DNA from: Acidimicrobiia bacterium
GTDB taxonomy: Bacteria > Actinomycetota > Acidimicrobiia > Acidimicrobiales > Poriferisodalaceae
NCBI GenBank assembly: GCA_022820505.1
Contig: JAJEFK010000019.1
Location: 1 to 48,506, forward strand
Reading direction: 5' to 3'
Length of the DNA: 48,506 nt
Shown here: one piece after another, positions 16,242 through 27,173 of the stretch
How the letters are laid out: the number at the start of each line of letters is the position of its first letter
Numbering within the stretch: position 1 is the first letter of the stretch
Translations under genes and position numbers: made by a program
The notes under the pieces: generated by a model
Databases searched by the model: none
What the model saw: only the letters and a program-made list of their open reading frames with translations
What the model was told of the DNA's origin: nothing

Positions 16242-17414
16242 TCAGCGACTTGGCTGTTGAGGGTGAGGCGTTGGAGGCTCGGTGCCGAGGCTTCGCCCGC
16301 CGGGCTCGGGCGCGCGGCCGACGGGAACGTGCTGGAACTCGCGGTTCACCCTGCGGACAGCCGGTGTGATGGCCACGGCGTAGCCGACCAGAGCGAGGAG
16401 GACCCGGCGAGCCGGCAGGAGCACGAAGCAGATGGCCCACGCCGCGGCGAACCCAATGAGTCGTGGCTTCATCGCGGATATGCGAGCGGACGGCTTGTCG
16501 TCGGGTCGGCCGAGCGGGAATCGCTTCGGCTTGACGAACCATCCATGGGCGAACAGCTGAGCGACGAAGTACGGCCAGAAGGCCTCTGGGGCGTCGAGTG
16601 GGGGATCGGTATCCCAATCGGCGTCGGTGTCGCTGGCTAGCCCGTCTCGGACGCGAGACCACACATGCGACGCGGTGACTCGACCAGAGGCGCCACCGCG
16701 GTTCTGGTGAGTCGGGCGACAGTGCCACCGGTACAGCACCCGTCGGTCCTCAGTGAGGGCCAGTATCCCGGCCTGAAAGATGCCGTTCGGATGCGACGAC
16801 CAGTGCCGCTCGAGTACCCCGGTGTCGCCGATGTAGAGATCGAACCGGCCATTCTCACGGCAGTCTTCGAGGATCTCGTGGTGCGGGTCGCCTGCCGCTT
16901 GATATTCCAGTTCCCACGCGTCCTGCGCTTCGCTCGCAAGACTCTGGGGCTCACTGGTGACGGCGAAGATCTCGCCTCCAGCAGCCCGGATCTCCTCGAC
17001 GACTCCCGATCTTCCAAAGCCGCGCAACTCGCGGCGGCATGGAGGTCACCACAACCCGCGGTAAAACACCAACACGACGAACCTGTGCTTGTCGAGTTGG
17101 GCGTTGAGCCATCCGGCGCGTATCCCGATCGGCGGGTCGAGCAGCGGCGGGATCAGCGGATCGTCAACTTCGGCGGCCGACACGCGAAAGCCCTCGGCTG
17201 ATCGTTCGACCACCACCTGCCCACGGGCACAGACGTCGCCGTCGCACAGCACCAATCCCAGCTCGAAGGACCCTGCTCGCGCTCGTGCCACGGTGTCTTC
17301 GGCATCGATGACCCCGGTGATCTCGAAGTGCGCTTCTTGCGTTGCGTTGATCCACTCGAGAGCGGCCTCCGAAGCAGCCTGAAGCTCAGTGGGGGTTTCC
17401 TCGCTCACGTTCAT
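16242..17414 (-). CDS. Predicted selenoprotein: peroxiredoxin/thioredoxin-like with UGA at the catalytic cysteine
   Basis: Two open stretches in one frame, 17414-17049 and 17045-16242, are separated by a single TGA (17048-17046) and together encode 390 residues. Around the TGA the protein reads FVVLVFYRGLW-[TGA]-PPCRRELRGF. AhpC/TSA-like 'peroxiredoxin-like' proteins carry FYRGxWCPxCxxEL here, so TGA falls exactly on the first redox cysteine (Sec123), giving UxxC with C126. The sequence after it (VVEEIRAAGGEIFAVTSEPQ) continues the redoxin fold. A SECIS-like hairpin follows directly. The N-terminal 115 residues are an extra domain I do not recognise; the C-terminus has a hydrophobic segment (LIGFAAAWAICFVLLPAR, then VLLALVGYAVAI), suggesting a membrane anchor. 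The alternative is a nonsense-mutated pseudogene, but no other lesion is visible. SelA/SelB/SelC are not in this window. Confidence 0.85.
17013..17043 (-). promoter_or_regulatory. Bacterial SECIS-like hairpin
   Basis: Beginning two bases after the in-frame UGA, the mRNA folds as follows. UCCA pairs with UGGA (outer stem, 17043-17040 with 17016-17013), followed by a small U/UU internal loop. GCCGC then pairs with GCGGC (17038-17034 with 17023-17019), followed by a single bulged C and two more pairs (GC with GC). The five-base apical loop is GAGUU (17030-17026). The loop lies about 15 bases after the UGA and begins with G. Known bacterial SECIS elements have a short apical loop with a G in its first positions roughly 16-37 bases downstream, so position and shape both fit. 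Folding was done by hand. Confidence 0.75.
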
Positions 17415-17528: not shown

Positions 17529-18641
17529 CTACCGGTGATTGTCGAGGAAGAGCCGGGCCGCGTCGATGGCGACCTCGGCGGCCAGCGCCATGGCCTGTGG
17601 CGTCGTCGCAGCGGCGGCGGTGTCGGCGGTGGTGTGGAACAGCGATGACCCGCCCAGGAACGACAGCACCGATGCGTCAGCCTCGAACCATGTGCCGCCT
17701 TCGCCGGGCCACGGATTCGCCTCGCGCAAGCGCCAGTTGGCTGCGAGCACCCGGCGGCCGATCTCGTCGCGGACCTCGCCGCTGGCCGAGGTGAGCACTA
17801 TCCGCTGATCACCGAGCCCGGCCGGGCCTGTCGAATCGGGCTCGATCGCCCCAACCGATGCGCCGAGATGGACGACCGGCCAGCCAGTCACGTCGCGGCT
17901 GGCGAGATAGTGCTTGAGACCGATGTGATCGATCTCGTGACCGCTGCACACCGAGAGCGTGACGTGGTGATCGGCGGCGAGATCGGCGGCCATCGCCATC
18001 GCGACCGCGAGCCCAGTGCCGCGTTCGCCGGCGGCGGGGGTCCAGCCAGTCAGCGGCGTGGTGATGTTGATCGCTGGCGCGTCGGCTGCGCCCAATGTGG
18101 CGATGACGTTGGCGCTGCGATCCGGTTCGGCTGTCGCCGCGAAGGTCAGTTCGGCATCGGCGCCCCGGACACGGTCGGCCCAGTTGCCCGGAATGATGAC
18201 GGCGGGCCGCCCCGGGGTTGCCGGCATCTGCGGCACCCGGTTGCACTGCACGGGGTGGTCGTCGAGTCCTCCGATGGCCATGACGAGCGCCGCCGCGTCA
18301 GGGTCGGTGTCGAGGTAGGGGTCGAGCCCGCGCGGGTTGCCGACGATGCCGACATCGACGTCAACTACGGAGAGATTCCTGGTCTGCCAGTTGCCCTTCG
18401 CGCAATAGAAGACGGGCAGCGCAGGCACCACTTGGCCGGTGATCCGCAGCTCGGAGGTACAGACGAACCGGTCGAACTCAAACCGGTCTTCGTGCACTGA
18501 GGCACCAAGGCTCCGGAGGACGTCGGTCAGCCAGGCGGTGGTCTGGGCATCGGCCGGGGTGCCGGTGTTGTGGTTGCCGAAGCTCGCGTAGGTCTCGACG
18601 ATCTCGTACAGCTCGTCGGCGCTGAACCTCGTGGTGGTCAT
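17529..18641 (-). CDS. M28-like peptidase-fold protein with altered zinc ligands
   Basis: A 370-residue protein. The opening (YEIVETYASFGNHNTGTPAD, WLTDVLRSLGASVHEDRFEF) is that of M28 aminopeptidases, and GHEIDHIGLKHYLASR and SSLFHTTADTAAAA near the end match the family's 'EE.GL.GS..Y' and 'H...DT' blocks. But the canonical 'HxDS...GAxDNxSG' segment reads TPLTGWTPAAGERGTGLAVA, and the catalytic EE pair reads HE. Several zinc ligands therefore appear substituted. It may be a non-peptidase offshoot. ATG 18641 is chosen because homology begins there; the frame is open upstream without similarity. No signal peptide is seen. Confidence 0.72.
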   Translation of the reverse strand: MTTTRFSADELYEIVETYASFGNHNTGTPADAQTTAWLTDVLRSLGASVHEDRFEFDRFVCTSELRITGQVVPALPVFYCAKGNWQTRNLSVVDVDVGIVGNPRGLDPYLDTDPDAAALVMAIGGLDDHPVQCNRVPQMPATPGRPAVIIPGNWADRVRGADAELTFAATAEPDRSANVIATLGAADAPAINITTPLTGWTPAAGERGTGLAVAMAMAADLAADHHVTLSVCSGHEIDHIGLKHYLASRDVTGWPVVHLGASVGAIEPDSTGPAGLGDQRIVLTSASGEVRDEIGRRVLAANWRLREANPWPGEGGTWFEADASVLSFLGGSSLFHTTADTAAAATTPQAMALAAEVAIDAARLFLDNHR

Positions 18642-18845
18642 CAGGCTCGTAGGTCCGCCAGTTGGTTCGCCATCTCGACCTCGGCCGCCCCCGTGGGCGA
18701 CCGCTTTGGCGTGTCCCACCCCGGCGTCGATTCGTGGACCGTGGTGCCAACCCTCGGTGTGCTCAACCGTGCACCTTCCCCCGCAGACCCGCGCCGACAC
18801 CAGTGCCCGCTTTCGGTGAGACCCTAGGTCAGCAACCCCCGCAAC

Positions 18846-19322: not shown

Positions 19323-20279
19323 ATGGCGCGTTCAGATCTGCTGTTGAATCTCGTCGAGGCCGAGCGTTCAGGGGACCGGCAGCGGTTCCTCATGGTGGTT
19401 GAGTCGGTCATCGCCGAAGAGCGCAAGAAGCAGCATCATCTTGTTGCAGACCGGCTCGAAGAGCTCATCTCGACTGCCGGATCCTCGGCGACTGCTCGCT
19501 ACCAAAGCCCGCCAGTAACTCAGGACGGTCTGCTGCTAGAGGTCGTGCCGAGGCGAAGGCTGGCCGATCTTGCTCTGTCTACCGAAACGGCCACATTGGT
19601 GTCGGAGGTCGTTGAGGAGCAGCGTCGACGGGATGTGCTGAGGACGCACGGGTTGGAACCCCGGCATCGGTTGATGCTGGTCGGACCGCCGGGCAACGGC
19701 AAGACGAGCTTGGCTGAGGCGATAGCGGCGGAACTCATGGTGCCAATGTTGGTGGCTTCATACGAGGCGCTGATCAGCAGTTATCTGGGCGAGACCGCCA
19801 GTCGTCTTGCCGCGCTGTTCGAATACGTTCGATCGCGCGAGTGCGTCTTGTTCTTTGACGAGTTCGACACGATTGCCAAGGAACGGGCTGACGATCATGA
19901 CACCGGAGAACTCAAGCGCGTGGTGTCATCCCTGCTGTTGGGCGTTGATCGACTCCCGAGCCATGTGATCTTGGTGACGGCATCGAACCACCCGGAGGTA
20001 CTGGACCGGGCTGCCGGGCGCCGGTTCCAGGTACACGTGACATTGCCGGCGCCGACCCAGGCACAGATTGGTCGGTTCGTCGAACGGCAAGCGGCCCGCG
20101 GCCACGGATTTGGGGTGACCCCTGAAACGATCGCAAGAAACATGGCCGGGGCGAGTTATTCCGAGGTTGAAGACCTCCTGCTAGATATTCGCCGGCGCTA
20201 TGTTCTCGGCCTCCCGGACGCCGACCTGAAACGGACAGCACAAGAACGGCTCGGTAGGTGGCGGAAGCAGAAGCAATAG
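19323..20279 (+). CDS. ietA: IetA-like AAA ATPase of a two-gene ATPase-subtilase defence system
   Basis: A 318-residue AAA ATPase. Walker A is GPPGNGKTS (121-129), Walker B CVLFFDEFD with D179-E180; sensor-1-like VTASNHPEVLDRAAGRRF and a C-terminal lid follow. The N-terminal 60 residues are helical and charged. A strong ribosome site (GAGGAGG) precedes ATG 19323. The next gene is a subtilase overlapping by 22 bases. AAA ATPase plus subtilase in this order is the IetA-IetS pair: a plasmid stability/incompatibility toxin-antitoxin system on Agrobacterium pTiC58, with related ATPase-protease pairs also reported as antiphage. IetA is the antidote there. Confidence 0.85.
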   Translation: MARSDLLLNLVEAERSGDRQRFLMVVESVIAEERKKQHHLVADRLEELISTAGSSATARYQSPPVTQDGLLLEVVPRRRLADLALSTETATLVSEVVEEQRRRDVLRTHGLEPRHRLMLVGPPGNGKTSLAEAIAAELMVPMLVASYEALISSYLGETASRLAALFEYVRSRECVLFFDEFDTIAKERADDHDTGELKRVVSSLLLGVDRLPSHVILVTASNHPEVLDRAAGRRFQVHVTLPAPTQAQIGRFVERQAARGHGFGVTPETIARNMAGASYSEVEDLLLDIRRRYVLGLPDADLKRTAQERLGRWRKQKQ

Positions 20280-22816
20280 CGCCGCCGTGGATGGTTCTTG
20301 AGGCGGCGCGCAAGGAGCCGATGCCTCCGGTGCCACCGAGGCCTCGCCCGCGCCTACACGTGCCTGGGCATGGCGATCAAACGACGCGTCGGGACGCGGC
20401 TTGGACTCTGCTGCGCAAGGCGTTCGAAGCCGAGCGGATGCGGGTTCAGACGACCGTCGGTTCCGAGGAGCCCGAGCTCGTCGTTGTCATTGAAGTAGCT
20501 CACTCGGTCGATGCGTTCCTCGACACGGTCGAGAGAATTGACGGCCTTGAGTTCCTATTCGAGGATGCCGACGACCGCCCGCCCGATGACGATTTTCACA
20601 CACAGCGCAAACCGAAGGGTTCCGATGAGTACCGGCGGACCGCTTCGACATCATTGGCGTCGACCGTGTACTTCGTGTTCACGGACGCAGCTGCGGTACG
20701 AGAGCTGCTGTCGATGTGGACGAGGTTCAAGGAGAACCCGTCCATCCGGCTTCCGCGGCCGTGGAGGAAGGTCTTCACTCAACAGGTTGCAGATGTGCGA
20801 GCGTGGGCGCCTCGAGATCGGTTGACGAAGTCACTCGACGAAGCCATCCAAGCTGCGGAGTGGGGGAGGGTCGAGCAGATCTCCGTCGAGGTCGAACTCT
20901 GGTATCGCCGGGACTCCGCGGCTCGTGAGGAGGCCAGTCGGCATGTCCGAGACCAAGCCGAGGCGTGCGGAGGGACCGTCCTCGACGAGTGCGTGATTGA
21001 AGGCATCGATTATCACGCGCTGCTCCTCGAGCTTCCAGTTCGGGAAGTTAAGTCCTTCTACTCGGAGGATCCAGGAGGATTGGTCAGCGCAAAGCAGGTG
21101 ATGCACCTACACCGAAGCACGCAGGCATCGGTAGTTCGTCTCGATGCCGTTGGCGAATCACCAGCGGTTGCCATTGATGCCCCACCGCCGACGGGATTGC
21201 CACGGGTAGCGCTGCTTGACGGGTTGCCCATGTCGAACCACGGCCTGCTCACGAACCGTCTCATCGTCGACGATCCGGACGAACGCGAGCGGTTTTATCC
21301 AGCGCAGCACCGCCAACACGGAACCGCGATGGCGTCCGTCATCATCCATGGTGACCTGTCAGCGGCACGCGACGCCCTGCGCCGTCCCCTGTACGTCCGC
21401 CCGATCCTGGAAGCGCCCGACCGCGTCGAAGCACCTGAGCGGTATCCCACCGCTCAGTTGATCTGCGACGTAGTGCATCGCGCCGTCGTGCGCATGTGCG
21501 ATGGCGACGGCGACACCTCGCCGGCCGCACCGAGCGTGAAGCTGGTGAACTTGTCGATCGGCGATCCAGACCGTCACCTAGAGCGTCGAGTCAGCCCGTT
21601 GGCTCGGTTGTTGGATTATCTCGCCTATCGGTACGACCTGCTCTTTGTAGTCTCCGCTGGCAATCATCCTCAAACAATCTCCTACGAGCCACGAACCGGC
21701 GATCTCGGCGCCGACGTTTGGCGGGCCATAGTTGACGAACTGAATGATCGACGGTTGCTGTCTCCGGCCGAATCGATCAACTCGCTGACTGTCGGTGCTC
21801 TCCATTCGGATCGCAGTAACGCAGTCGTGACGGCCGCAAACCGCGTAGAGCCAGCGGAGGTCGGCTCACCGGCGCTGTACTCGGCGGTTGGACGCGGCTT
21901 TGCCCGCTCTGTCAAGCCGGAGGTCTTCGCCCCAGGCGGTCGCCAGATCTACAGGGAAGGCTTCGACGAGGGCCAAGAAGTACGGGAACTACATCAAGCC
22001 AACAACGTGGTAACCGCGCCAGGTGTCCTAGTCGCCCAGCCCGGCTCGGATAGCTCGACGGTCTCAGCTCACTACTGGCGAGGCACGAGCCTCGCGACGG
22101 CCCACGTCACCAGGTTTGCATCTGATGTCCTTGACCGACTGGAACTCTTGCAAGGTGAACGTGGCGACGGTTCGTTACCCGACGAGTCTCTAGCGGTGTT
22201 GACGAAGGCGCTTGTCGTTCACGCTGCAAGCTGGGGCGAACCTATGGCTTGGGAGAACGGCGCAGAGGCCTCGGGGACAGCGCGCCGCAAGGGGCTAAGC
22301 CGACTGCTGGGTTACGGGCGAGCATCGCCGCTTTGGCTGTTTTCTGACACACCGCACCGGGCGACATTGGTGGCAACGGATGTACTCGGCGCCGACGAGC
22401 AGGCGTTCTTCGAGATCCCGCTGCCAGAGGGACTCCGATCGTCGACATACTGGCGCCGTCTCCGGCTCACCTTGGCATGGTTCTCGCCGATCAATTCCAG
22501 ACATCAGGGGTATCGGCGCGCTCGGCTCGCGCTTGAGGTTCCGCAAGTGAGCCGGACGTTGCTCGAGATCGACCGCGCCGAGGTTCACAGGGATGCAGCT
22601 GTGCGGGGCACTGTCCAGCACGAGCTTTTCGAAGGAACCGATGCACCGGTGTTCAGTGACGATGACAGATTCCAGGTCTCGGTGACGGCTCGCGCTGGTG
22701 CCGGAATCCTCGAGGAGGAAGTCCGATTCGGGCTCATTGCCACTCTGGAAGCCGCTGCGGAGGCGGGAATCGGTGTGCGGGAGCAAATGCGCGAGCGGGT
22801 GCGCGTACGTGCGTAG
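20258..22816 (+). CDS. ietS: IetS-like subtilisin-family (S8) serine protease
   Basis: An 852-residue protein. A 300-residue N-terminal region of unknown fold precedes the S8 domain. The triad is visible as VALLDGLP (D321), RQHGTAMASV (H354) and RGTSLATAHVTR (S611), with oxyanion N469 in VVSAGNH. A C-terminal jelly-roll-like domain follows. No signal peptide is present, so it is cytoplasmic, as expected for IetS, the toxic partner restrained by its ATPase. GTG 20258 overlaps the IetA gene and gives the full-length frame; ATG 20291 is a possible alternative. Base use is visibly less GC-rich than in the catabolic genes, consistent with a mobile island. Confidence 0.85.
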   Translation: MAEAEAIAPPWMVLEAARKEPMPPVPPRPRPRLHVPGHGDQTTRRDAAWTLLRKAFEAERMRVQTTVGSEEPELVVVIEVAHSVDAFLDTVERIDGLEFLFEDADDRPPDDDFHTQRKPKGSDEYRRTASTSLASTVYFVFTDAAAVRELLSMWTRFKENPSIRLPRPWRKVFTQQVADVRAWAPRDRLTKSLDEAIQAAEWGRVEQISVEVELWYRRDSAAREEASRHVRDQAEACGGTVLDECVIEGIDYHALLLELPVREVKSFYSEDPGGLVSAKQVMHLHRSTQASVVRLDAVGESPAVAIDAPPPTGLPRVALLDGLPMSNHGLLTNRLIVDDPDERERFYPAQHRQHGTAMASVIIHGDLSAARDALRRPLYVRPILEAPDRVEAPERYPTAQLICDVVHRAVVRMCDGDGDTSPAAPSVKLVNLSIGDPDRHLERRVSPLARLLDYLAYRYDLLFVVSAGNHPQTISYEPRTGDLGADVWRAIVDELNDRRLLSPAESINSLTVGALHSDRSNAVVTAANRVEPAEVGSPALYSAVGRGFARSVKPEVFAPGGRQIYREGFDEGQEVRELHQANNVVTAPGVLVAQPGSDSSTVSAHYWRGTSLATAHVTRFASDVLDRLELLQGERGDGSLPDESLAVLTKALVVHAASWGEPMAWENGAEASGTARRKGLSRLLGYGRASPLWLFSDTPHRATLVATDVLGADEQAFFEIPLPEGLRSSTYWRRLRLTLAWFSPINSRHQGYRRARLALEVPQVSRTLLEIDRAEVHRDAAVRGTVQHELFEGTDAPVFSDDDRFQVSVTARAGAGILEEEVRFGLIATLEAAAEAGIGVREQMRERVRVRA

Positions 22817-24323: not shown

Positions 24324-27173
24324 GTGACGCCGTACGAGTTCATTAGCAAGTGGCGAGCATCCACGCTGACTGAGCGCTCAGCGTCGCAGCAGCATTTCCT
24401 CGATCTCTGCGAGTTGCTCGGCGAACCCAAACCGGCGGAGGTGGACCCGCACGGCGAGTCGTATTGCTTCGAGCGAGGGGCGCGCAAGGATTCTGGCGGA
24501 GACGGATGGGCTGACGTCTGGAAGCGCCACCACTTCGCTTGGGAGTACAAGGGCAAGCGGAAGGACCTTGACGCTGCGTTTGGGCAGCTCCGGCAGTACT
24601 CCCTGGCGCTGGAGAACCCGCCCTTGCTGATCGTCTCGGACATGGAGCGGTTCCGCATCCGCACCAATTGGACAAACAGTGTCAGCAAGGTCTACGAGTT
24701 CGACCTCGCGGATCTTGCAGACGCCGAGACGCGCGACCTACTCAAGCGGGCCCTCTCAGACCCTGAGCACCTGCGGCCGGACAACACTCGGCAAGCACTC
24801 ACCGAGCAGGCGGCGGATTCCTTCTCGACAGTTGCGCAGACGCTTCGGGGACGCGGACATGACCCGCACGAGGTCGCACACTTTGTCAACCGGCTCGTGT
24901 TCTGCATGTTCGCGGAGGATGTGGGGCTGCTGCCCGATCACATGTTCACGCGGCTGCTGAAGCAGGTGCGACGCACACCGGCGCAGTTTGCAGAGCTCGC
25001 TAGCGATCTATTCCGGGGGATGGCCACCGGCGGACGGATCGGCTTCGAGTCGGTCGCTTGGTTCAACGGCGGCCTGTTCGACGATGATGCGGCGCTGCCG
25101 CTGGAGGCATCCGACATCGACACCGTGCTGGCAGCGGCGAGTCTCGACTGGTCGGAGATCGACCCGTCAATCCTCGGCACGCTGTTCGAGCGTGGGCTCG
25201 ACCCGGACAAACGCGCCCAGCTTGGGGCGCACTACACGGACCGCGACAAGATCATGATGATCGTCGAGCCTGTCGTGGTCCGCCCATTGCTTGCGGAATG
25301 GGAAGCGGAGAAAGCGGAGCTCGCCGAGGTCTTGGAGCGCGCAGATGCGGCCGAGGCGGCGGCTGTCCGCACCAGGCGGCGGAATGAGGCGACACAGCGG
25401 TATCGCAACTTCTTGAACCGGTTGAGGGCGTTCACGGTGCTCGACCCTGCGTGCGGCTCGGGCAATTTCTTGTATCTGGCCCTGCAAGCGCTCAAGGACC
25501 TAGAGCATCGGGTGCAGTTTGAGGCGGAGACGCTCGGCTTGGAGCGCGCCTTCCCGGAGATCGGTCCGGCGAATGTGAAGGGCATCGAGATCAATCCCTA
25601 CGCGGCGGAGTTGGCGCGCGTGTCGGTGTGGATCGGCGAGATTCAGTGGATGCGACGCAACGGATTCGCAGAGTCGCGCGACCCGATCCTGAAGCCGCTT
25701 GACACCATTGAGTGTCGCGATGCGATCCTGACGCCGGACAGCACCGAGCCGGACTGGCCGGAAGCGGAGGTCATCATCGGCAATCCACCGTTCTTGGGCG
25801 ACAAGCTCTTGAAGGCCGGCTTGGGCGAGGACTACGTGGGGCGGATGTTCGCGACCTACGCCAGTCGCGTACCCGGCGGAGCAGACCTCGTTTGCTACTG
25901 GTTCGAGAAGGCTGGCCAGCAGATCGCGGCTGGCAAGGCGAACCGAGTCGGGCTTGTCGCCACCAACTCGATTCGTGGCGGTGCGAACCGCAGGGCGCTG
26001 GAGGCCGCGACGGAGAATCGGCGGATCTTCGAGGCATGGAGCAATGAGCCATGGGTGATTGACGGAGCGGCAGTTCGGGTGTCACTGGTCTGCTTCTCGC
26101 ATGCAGACGACAGGTTCGTGAGGGGTTCGCGGCTCGACGGAGCGGCGGTTGACGAGATCTACACAGACTTAACCGCGTCGAGCGGTGGGGTCGGCGTCGA
26201 CCTCACGAAGGCCCGCCGTCTCGCTGAGAACGACGGCGTGGCCTTCGTAGGCGACCAGAAGAGTGGTCCCTTCGACATCTCGGGCGAGCGTGCACGCGAG
26301 TGGCTCCGCTTGCCGGCGAATCCGAATGGCCGGAACAACGCTGACGTTCTCAAGCCGTGGGTCAACGGGATGGACCTGACCCGGCGACCTGCGGGGAACT
26401 GGATCATCGACTTCGGACTGAGCATGTCTGCGGGTGAGGCGGCGCTCTACGAAGAGCCGTTCCGGTGGGTGCAAGAGCACGTCCTGCCCACATGGGAGGA
26501 ACAACGAAAGGCCCGGCGACGAGATTGCTGGTGGTTGCATCATTGGCCACGGCCGAAGATGCGGGCAGCACTCGACGGACTGTCGCGGTACATCGCCACA
26601 CCTACCGTCGCTAAGCACCGGCTGTTCGTGTGGCTCGATACTCGTATCTGCCCAGATCATCAGCTGATCGTCGTCGCACGTGACGACGACACCACTTTCG
26701 GCATGCTGCACAGCCGCTTCCACGAGCTCTGGTCGCTTCGGCACGGAACGAGCCTGGAGGACCGACCGCGTTACACGCCCACATCCACCTTCGCTACGTT
26801 CCCGTTCCCGTCCGGCATGGCGCCGAACGTTCCGACGGCTGACTATGACTCCGATCCTCGTGCTGTGGCAATTGCAGCGGCGGCTCGGCGCCTCGTGGCG
26901 CTGCGCGACCGCTGGCTCAACCCTCCCGAATGGGTTGAGTGGATCGATGAGCCGGTCCCCGGGTATCCGAAGCGGCCCGTTCCCCGCAATGACGAGTCGG
27001 CGATCGCGATCAAGGAACGTACGCTGACCAACCTCTACAACGACCGCCCTCAGTGGTTGGCCGACGCGCACCACGCCCTTGACGCAAGTGTGGCAGCGGC
27101 GTATGGCTGGCCAGCTGACCTCTCGGATGATGAGGTTCTTCGCGAGTTGATGTTGCTCAACGGAGGTACTTAG
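24324..27173 (+). CDS. MmeI-like (type IIL) fused restriction endonuclease-adenine methyltransferase
   Basis: A 949-residue single-chain restriction-modification enzyme. The N-terminal nuclease shows GWADVWKRHHFAWEYKGKRK, i.e. D64-X9-E74-x-K76, the spacing known from MmeI. A helical linker leads to an amino-methyltransferase domain: motif I DPACGSGNFLYLAL (from D374) and catalytic motif IV NPPF (N487), typical of N6-adenine or N4-cytosine methylation. The C-terminal 350 residues are the target-recognition domain, and length is close to MmeI. One protein cuts at a fixed distance and methylates one strand. The frame is intact. The target sequence cannot be read from the protein by eye. Confidence 0.92.
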   Translation: MTPYEFISKWRASTLTERSASQQHFLDLCELLGEPKPAEVDPHGESYCFERGARKDSGGDGWADVWKRHHFAWEYKGKRKDLDAAFGQLRQYSLALENPPLLIVSDMERFRIRTNWTNSVSKVYEFDLADLADAETRDLLKRALSDPEHLRPDNTRQALTEQAADSFSTVAQTLRGRGHDPHEVAHFVNRLVFCMFAEDVGLLPDHMFTRLLKQVRRTPAQFAELASDLFRGMATGGRIGFESVAWFNGGLFDDDAALPLEASDIDTVLAAASLDWSEIDPSILGTLFERGLDPDKRAQLGAHYTDRDKIMMIVEPVVVRPLLAEWEAEKAELAEVLERADAAEAAAVRTRRRNEATQRYRNFLNRLRAFTVLDPACGSGNFLYLALQALKDLEHRVQFEAETLGLERAFPEIGPANVKGIEINPYAAELARVSVWIGEIQWMRRNGFAESRDPILKPLDTIECRDAILTPDSTEPDWPEAEVIIGNPPFLGDKLLKAGLGEDYVGRMFATYASRVPGGADLVCYWFEKAGQQIAAGKANRVGLVATNSIRGGANRRALEAATENRRIFEAWSNEPWVIDGAAVRVSLVCFSHADDRFVRGSRLDGAAVDEIYTDLTASSGGVGVDLTKARRLAENDGVAFVGDQKSGPFDISGERAREWLRLPANPNGRNNADVLKPWVNGMDLTRRPAGNWIIDFGLSMSAGEAALYEEPFRWVQEHVLPTWEEQRKARRRDCWWLHHWPRPKMRAALDGLSRYIATPTVAKHRLFVWLDTRICPDHQLIVVARDDDTTFGMLHSRFHELWSLRHGTSLEDRPRYTPTSTFATFPFPSGMAPNVPTADYDSDPRAVAIAAAARRLVALRDRWLNPPEWVEWIDEPVPGYPKRPVPRNDESAIAIKERTLTNLYNDRPQWLADAHHALDASVAAAYGWPADLSDDEVLRELMLLNGGT

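Follow-up and report, generated by a model that had tools for sequence, protein, structure and literature searches.

The window, meaning the whole stretch of 48,506 nt that was analysed, is contig 18 of a 3.29 Mb host genome assembled in 61 contigs. Its minus strand carries a frame that starts with ATG and continues for 390 codons to a TGA stop (391 codons in all), interrupted by a single in-frame TGA at codon 123 (Table 1). The residues flanking this codon read FYRGLW-U-PPCRREL. An earlier note on this DNA had described one frame with a single TGA at codon 123 and the motif FYRGLW-x-PPCRREL but gave no strand, and we confirmed the description on the minus strand. The plus-strand reading of 16242..17414 was also inspected; its frame was unremarkable and held nothing of note. 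The same note had expected annotation to split the gene, and mechanical ORF calling indeed returned two ORFs, at 17414-17046 (122 aa) and 17027-16242 (261 aa). Immediately upstream, a 423-codon ORF on the minus strand (17529-18800) had no Pfam match at 1e-5. Further along, the plus strand encodes an AAA ATPase followed by a subtilase-family protease (19323-22816) and an MmeI-type restriction-modification protein (24324-27173).

Table 1. Features of the interrupted gene in window coordinates
Feature	Position	Strand	Basis or remark
Joined coding frame, 390 codons, ATG start	16245..17414	-	TGA stop at 16242-16244; conserved in relatives L009-L017
In-frame TGA, codon 123, probably read as Sec	17046..17048	-	TGA in the window and in 9/9 relatives; Cys in 12 homologues
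C126 codon, second position of the U-P-P-C motif	17037..17039	-	Sequence and comparison of N-halves
Candidate bacterial SECIS hairpin with a stem of 6 bp and the loop AGUUG, which lies 16 nt past the UGA	17019..17035	-	Model criteria as given in PMC13188914
N-terminal domain, residues 1-92, cystatin-like arrangement (marginal match)	17139..17414	-	No Pfam family
Conserved Cys pair C57 and C62 of the N-terminal domain	17229..17246	-	Invariant in alignment A6; pair in 75/75 sequences
Peroxiredoxin/thioredoxin-fold domain, residues 97-263	16626..17126	-	Pfam match, structure model, PDB fold matches
C-terminal hydrophobic helical hairpin, residues 312-361, predicted membrane anchor	16332..16481	-	Model helices 312-332 and 335-361; hydropathy maximum at windows starting 322-331

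When the two ORFs were joined, Pfam recognised AhpC-TSA (PF00578) at 38.3 bits, above the cut-off of 26. The match spans residues 109-183, and thus the TGA cuts through the domain; neither half alone matched a Pfam family at E <= 1. A Pfam search with the N-terminal domain found no family, and the middle domain is the one part of the protein that passes a Pfam cut-off. Against NCBIfam, neither the joined protein nor two of its Cys homologues reached the cut-off of any model. The earlier note had regarded the N-terminal domain and the C-terminal hydrophobic segment as unusual additions, but both are common to the aligned family and are its usual form. The spacing of the two cysteines in the N-terminal pair is eight residues in each of the 12 Cys homologues (P0007-P0036, P0185) but four in 62 of the 63 N-halves (P0122-P0184).

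The active site of a peroxiredoxin proper is PxxxT/SxxC. The site found here, GLW-U-P-P-C, lacks a Thr or Ser three residues before C126 and so departs from that motif. By its sequence, W-U-P-P-C is instead a thioredoxin-type motif in which the putative Sec is the first residue of UxxC, at the place where peroxiredoxins have Thr or Ser. The Sec forms of peroxiredoxin are given as TxxU in the 2026 review (PMC13188914). Weakly aligned to a thiol peroxidase (E 1.2), the protein has U123 opposite the Ser and C126 opposite the Cys of SxxC, which argues that the Sec would not be a substitute for the peroxidatic Cys of a peroxiredoxin. The claim that the TGA replaces the catalytic cysteine of a peroxiredoxin was therefore abandoned in favour of a thioredoxin-type UxxC.

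The enzyme could still be a peroxidase, that is a Sec peroxiredoxin with the same decoding of the TGA, and this is the main rival as to function. The nearest solved folds were peroxiredoxins and the Pfam family is AhpC-TSA. A common fold does not show function, however, and besides the departure of the site from the peroxiredoxin motif, ResA-, DsbE- and StoA-type models appeared among the NCBIfam matches, all of them far under cut-off, and ResA- and DsbE-type chains were also among the PDB matches. A PDB search with the A5 profile gave no match. Peroxidase activity is possible, but we rather doubt it. Thiol:disulfide reduction at the membrane is the most likely function, although we would hardly go beyond an even wager on it and hold it far less firmly than the decoding of the TGA.

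With the joined protein as query, 261 matches were obtained, of which the best 120 were examined. Among the 120 matches listed, 11 proteins were full-length (387-401 residues, with YRGFWCPPC), two were odd (P0006 and P0092), and the remaining 107, of 220-267 residues, lacked the part up to the TGA. The odd protein P0006 has CPP and then diverges from the family. When the first 122 residues were used as the query, 63 matches were obtained and 62 of these N-halves, the window's own among them, ended exactly in YRG[LFR]W; P0183 was the only one to end elsewhere than at the site. A third search with a Cys-form query gave 538 matches, of which the best 120 were examined, and among the matches listed there was one further Cys member, P0185, bringing the full-length Cys homologues to at least 12. 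Another protein, P0186, was full-length but odd, in that the motif was missing and the surroundings of the site were unlike the family. The earlier note had proposed a search for homologues with Cys at position 123; among the matches listed, all 12 full-length Cys homologues carry it at the equivalent of Sec123, and 62 of the 63 N-halves end there.

In one Myxococcota genome the two halves are MK489_14450 and MK489_14445. Among the other source names, Gammaproteobacteria stood for an N-half, Pseudomonadota and Hydrogenedentota for C-halves, and Saprospiraceae for Cys forms. Because predicted proteins of relatives that belong, by name, to several phyla end at the same active-site position, a whole family of such enzymes is likely filed as unrelated fragments. 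We infer that the stop at the site in the distant split members is also a TGA.

A candidate SECIS element lies directly after the UGA. According to the review, the bacterial model has a stem of 4-16 bp topped by a loop of 3-9 nt, with a G at either of the first two positions of that loop; the spacing is 16-37 nt, and the energy does not exceed -7.5 (PMC13188914). The hairpin GCCGCG-AGUUG-CGCGGC has an energy of -10.5 kcal/mol and a spacing of 16, at the low edge of the range. Hairpins that fit the model were present in 10/10 sequences (-7.8 to -10.5), yet 8.9% of ordinary codon positions also fit: among the 6495 codon positions of 12 window ORFs, 579 had a hairpin that fits the model with -7.5 or less, and 142 had one with -10.5 or less. 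Each of the six base pairs is kept in 10/10 sequences, and one of them runs through G-C, G-U and A-U; in L015, a different hairpin scores better. In 5000 synonymous shuffles, 885 reached -7.5 or lower and 466 reached -10.5 or lower, and the pairing score was reached in 143 of 500 column shuffles. Synonymous sites at the hairpin were not unusually conserved (87 of 383 windows were as low), and an Rfam search at the site gave no match. RNA folding returned a bulged variant of the hairpin as the minimum-energy fold, with z-scores of -0.89 (48 nt), -2.40 (36 nt) and -0.35 (77 nt). The hairpin lends weak support to a Sec reading without proving it.

The loop of this hairpin contains codon 130, a TTG, which would matter if the UGA were a true stop and the locus encoded two separate proteins, the second of them re-initiated at the TTG. 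In line with this, 65 of 108 C-halves are called from that position, starting with MRGY, MRSY, LRGY, MRGF, MRSF, LRSY or LRGF, and although TTG makes up only 11.8% of the Leu codons in the 12 window ORFs, it is kept in 10/10 sequences. Its position in the hairpin loop is, however, an equally good reason for its conservation. Furthermore, the split would sever both the redox motif and the fold, with neither half matching a domain alone, and the 12 Cys homologues are single chains. Re-initiation is thus improbable, and one continuous protein with Sec at codon 123 remains the preferred reading.

The host has the machinery that Sec at codon 123 would need. A tRNA-Sec on contig 36 scored 66.3 bits, above the Rfam cut-off, and ARAGORN reported it as tRNA-SeC with the anticodon tca. 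On the same contig, selA and selB are adjacent, and selD was found on a different contig (contig 8:48260-49213). The selD frame itself holds an in-frame TGA in GAGUACK, like known Sec-containing SelD. Within the family, 34 of 39 genomes had a tRNA-Sec match above cut-off, all 11 of the genus included, although the weakest of these matches could be other tRNAs. The earlier note had called for a search for selA, selB, selC and selD and had held that a host genome with no selB or selC would speak against Sec; since tRNA-Sec, selA, selB and selD were all found, that objection does not apply.

A conserved in-frame UGA needs some form of decoding, and it might also be read as an ordinary amino acid through suppression or a changed code. 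Homologues have Cys at this position, however, and the tRNA-Sec and selA, selB and selD are present. In addition, TGA is also the terminal stop of this very frame, both in the window and in six or more relatives, and thus TGA still terminates in the host. We consider ordinary readthrough very unlikely and Sec insertion the better account of the UGA.

The interrupted frame is well conserved among near relatives. In a scan of genome contigs, nine relatives that were 88-95% identical, in nine separate genomes of the same genus as the window, all kept the TGA at codon 123 and had no further stop up to the end of the frame or contig. These loci carried the titles Acidimicrobiia, Acidimicrobiaceae, Microthrixaceae or Acidimicrobiales, and their genomes were the same as those of the nine genus-level matches. 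Because 9/9 relatives keep the TGA at that codon in a frame that is otherwise open, the frame is more than chance. The mean dN/dS was 0.209 before the TGA and 0.144 after it (45 pairs on each side), which by sequence comparison places both halves under purifying selection. A pseudogene or a sequencing error, for which the internal stop by itself and the loss of the gene from one genome of the genus, G416, could be cited, can practically be dismissed, as the same TGA occurs in ten genomes with no second lesion and a dN/dS well under 1 on both sides.

A survey of the genus found the gene with exactly one TGA in 10/11 genomes, one copy being truncated where its contig stops. In G416, the match was confined to the final codons (L065), a 3' remnant beside a conserved enolase-family neighbour, and the flank aligned to the window up to position 16303 with 94.7% identity. 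This loss resembles a deletion more than decay through nonsense mutations. The earlier note had named nonsense or frameshift lesions in close relatives as evidence against a functional gene; there were none in the nine near relatives, and G416 has lost all but the 3' remnant. Outside the genus, a gene copy was absent from 28/28 other genomes of the family, save redox-site matches to another redoxin. Both this absence and the loss in G416 are points against the selenoprotein reading, as is the deviating end of P0183. In a phylum sample, 24 of 396 genomes matched, and in a class sample 18 of 395, with the full-length gene in the window's own genome alone and short redox-site matches in the rest. 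The gene was not found in the plasmid scan or in the scans of viral contigs.

The order in which Sec and Cys arose was explored with two trees. A tree of the C-terminal part with 119 rows, from which P0006 and P0092 were left out, placed the 11 Cys forms in one clade (100/100) amid the split forms. In a 205-row FastTree, built without P0006, P0092, P0186 and P0242, the Cys label had to change three times, P0185 was nested deep among the halves, and one half fell inside the main Cys clade; the midpoint root moved beside the main Cys clade. Split forms, in which Sec is presumed, are the majority of the matches listed and Cys forms the minority. At least one change from Sec to Cys is likely on these trees, although the root is not fixed. 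An ancestral Sec with Cys appearing later is favoured but not shown, because the trees nest Cys forms within split forms while the midpoint root moves. The wording of the earlier note, that Sec replaces Cys, may have the direction reversed.

Taken together, we give a probability of roughly 0.85 to the reading that the gene encodes one 390-residue selenoprotein, predicted to be anchored in the membrane, with UGA123 read as Sec in a U-P-P-C redox site. The decoding of UGA123 as Sec, taken by itself, is very likely. The central proposal of the earlier note, a TGA decoded as Sec in a redoxin-like protein, is accordingly upheld at the level of sequence by Cys or an exact end at this position in homologues, by the Sec machinery of the host and by the lack of decay in near relatives. 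In the mechanism that we propose, SelB and Sec-tRNA-Sec, aided by the hairpin right after the UGA, would insert Sec instead of terminating. Sec123 would then attack a disulfide (or peroxide) substrate, and C126 could resolve the Sec123 intermediate to a selenenylsulfide. The conservation of the C57/C62 pair suggests that it may supply this site with electrons, as an intramolecular dithiol relay, and the C-terminal helical hairpin is predicted to hold the enzyme at the membrane.

More tentatively, the gene may belong to a large uncatalogued family of membrane-anchored selenoenzymes in Actinomycetota, Gammaproteobacteria, Myxococcota and other bacteria, present in the form of hundreds of 'hypothetical' half-proteins, in which a cystatin-like dithiol domain would donate electrons to the Sec-x-x-Cys site and in which Sec would be ancestral and replaced later by Cys in the few Cys forms. 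Should Sec indeed be decoded, then a redox family is recorded as a pair of unnamed fragments wherever it occurs, which is why surveys of selenium use and of redox enzymes miss it. The family would also let Sec and Cys versions of one three-part enzyme be compared as they occur in nature, and would make it possible to test a selenoenzyme that combines its own dithiol domain with a membrane anchor.

The host encodes a second redoxin with an in-frame TGA, FYRSAVW-U-PPCRTQL (contig 37:22595-22801), which was seen with one TGA in 8/11 genomes of the genus (L068-L074 in the relatives) and is likely another selenoprotein by its sequence. It has the TGA at the same motif position in a redoxin domain and occurs in the same genus, but it can be aligned to the window protein only over about 70 residues with 39% identity, and its flanking domains are different. 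Other Actinomycetota redoxins have an in-frame TGA at FYRGDW-U-PYCNGQL or a near variant (L032, L035, L039, L040, L045, L049-L051 and L093); these are likely, from their sequences, a related group of Sec redoxins.

The 2026 review puts the number of families or subfamilies at 119 (PMC13188914). The three-part architecture was not found in the rows of its Table 1, where broad rows were compared by description, or in PMC2398784, PMC5029168 and PMC9312934, supplements apart. The best NCBIfam match of the joined protein was NF040769, the SelL-related redox proteins, over the redox-site region, but with 21 bits against a cut-off of 120 the protein falls outside that family. The nearest row in Table 1 is 'Prx-like thiol:disulfide oxidoreductase (PF00578, UxxC/UxxU)' (PMC13188914). 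Both have a PF00578-type domain and a UxxC motif, whereas the protein described here adds an N-terminal Cys-pair domain and a C-terminal hydrophobic hairpin, a comparison made with the description of the row and not with its representative WP_010940744.1. In the GOS study, the Prx-like 2 fusion joins an unnamed domain to a UxxC Prx-like selenoprotein, as is the case here (PMC2398784). Prx-like 2 was placed near pfam04592 (E > 0.001 according to its authors), which the joined protein did not match at E <= 1; compared by description, the two may nevertheless be identical.
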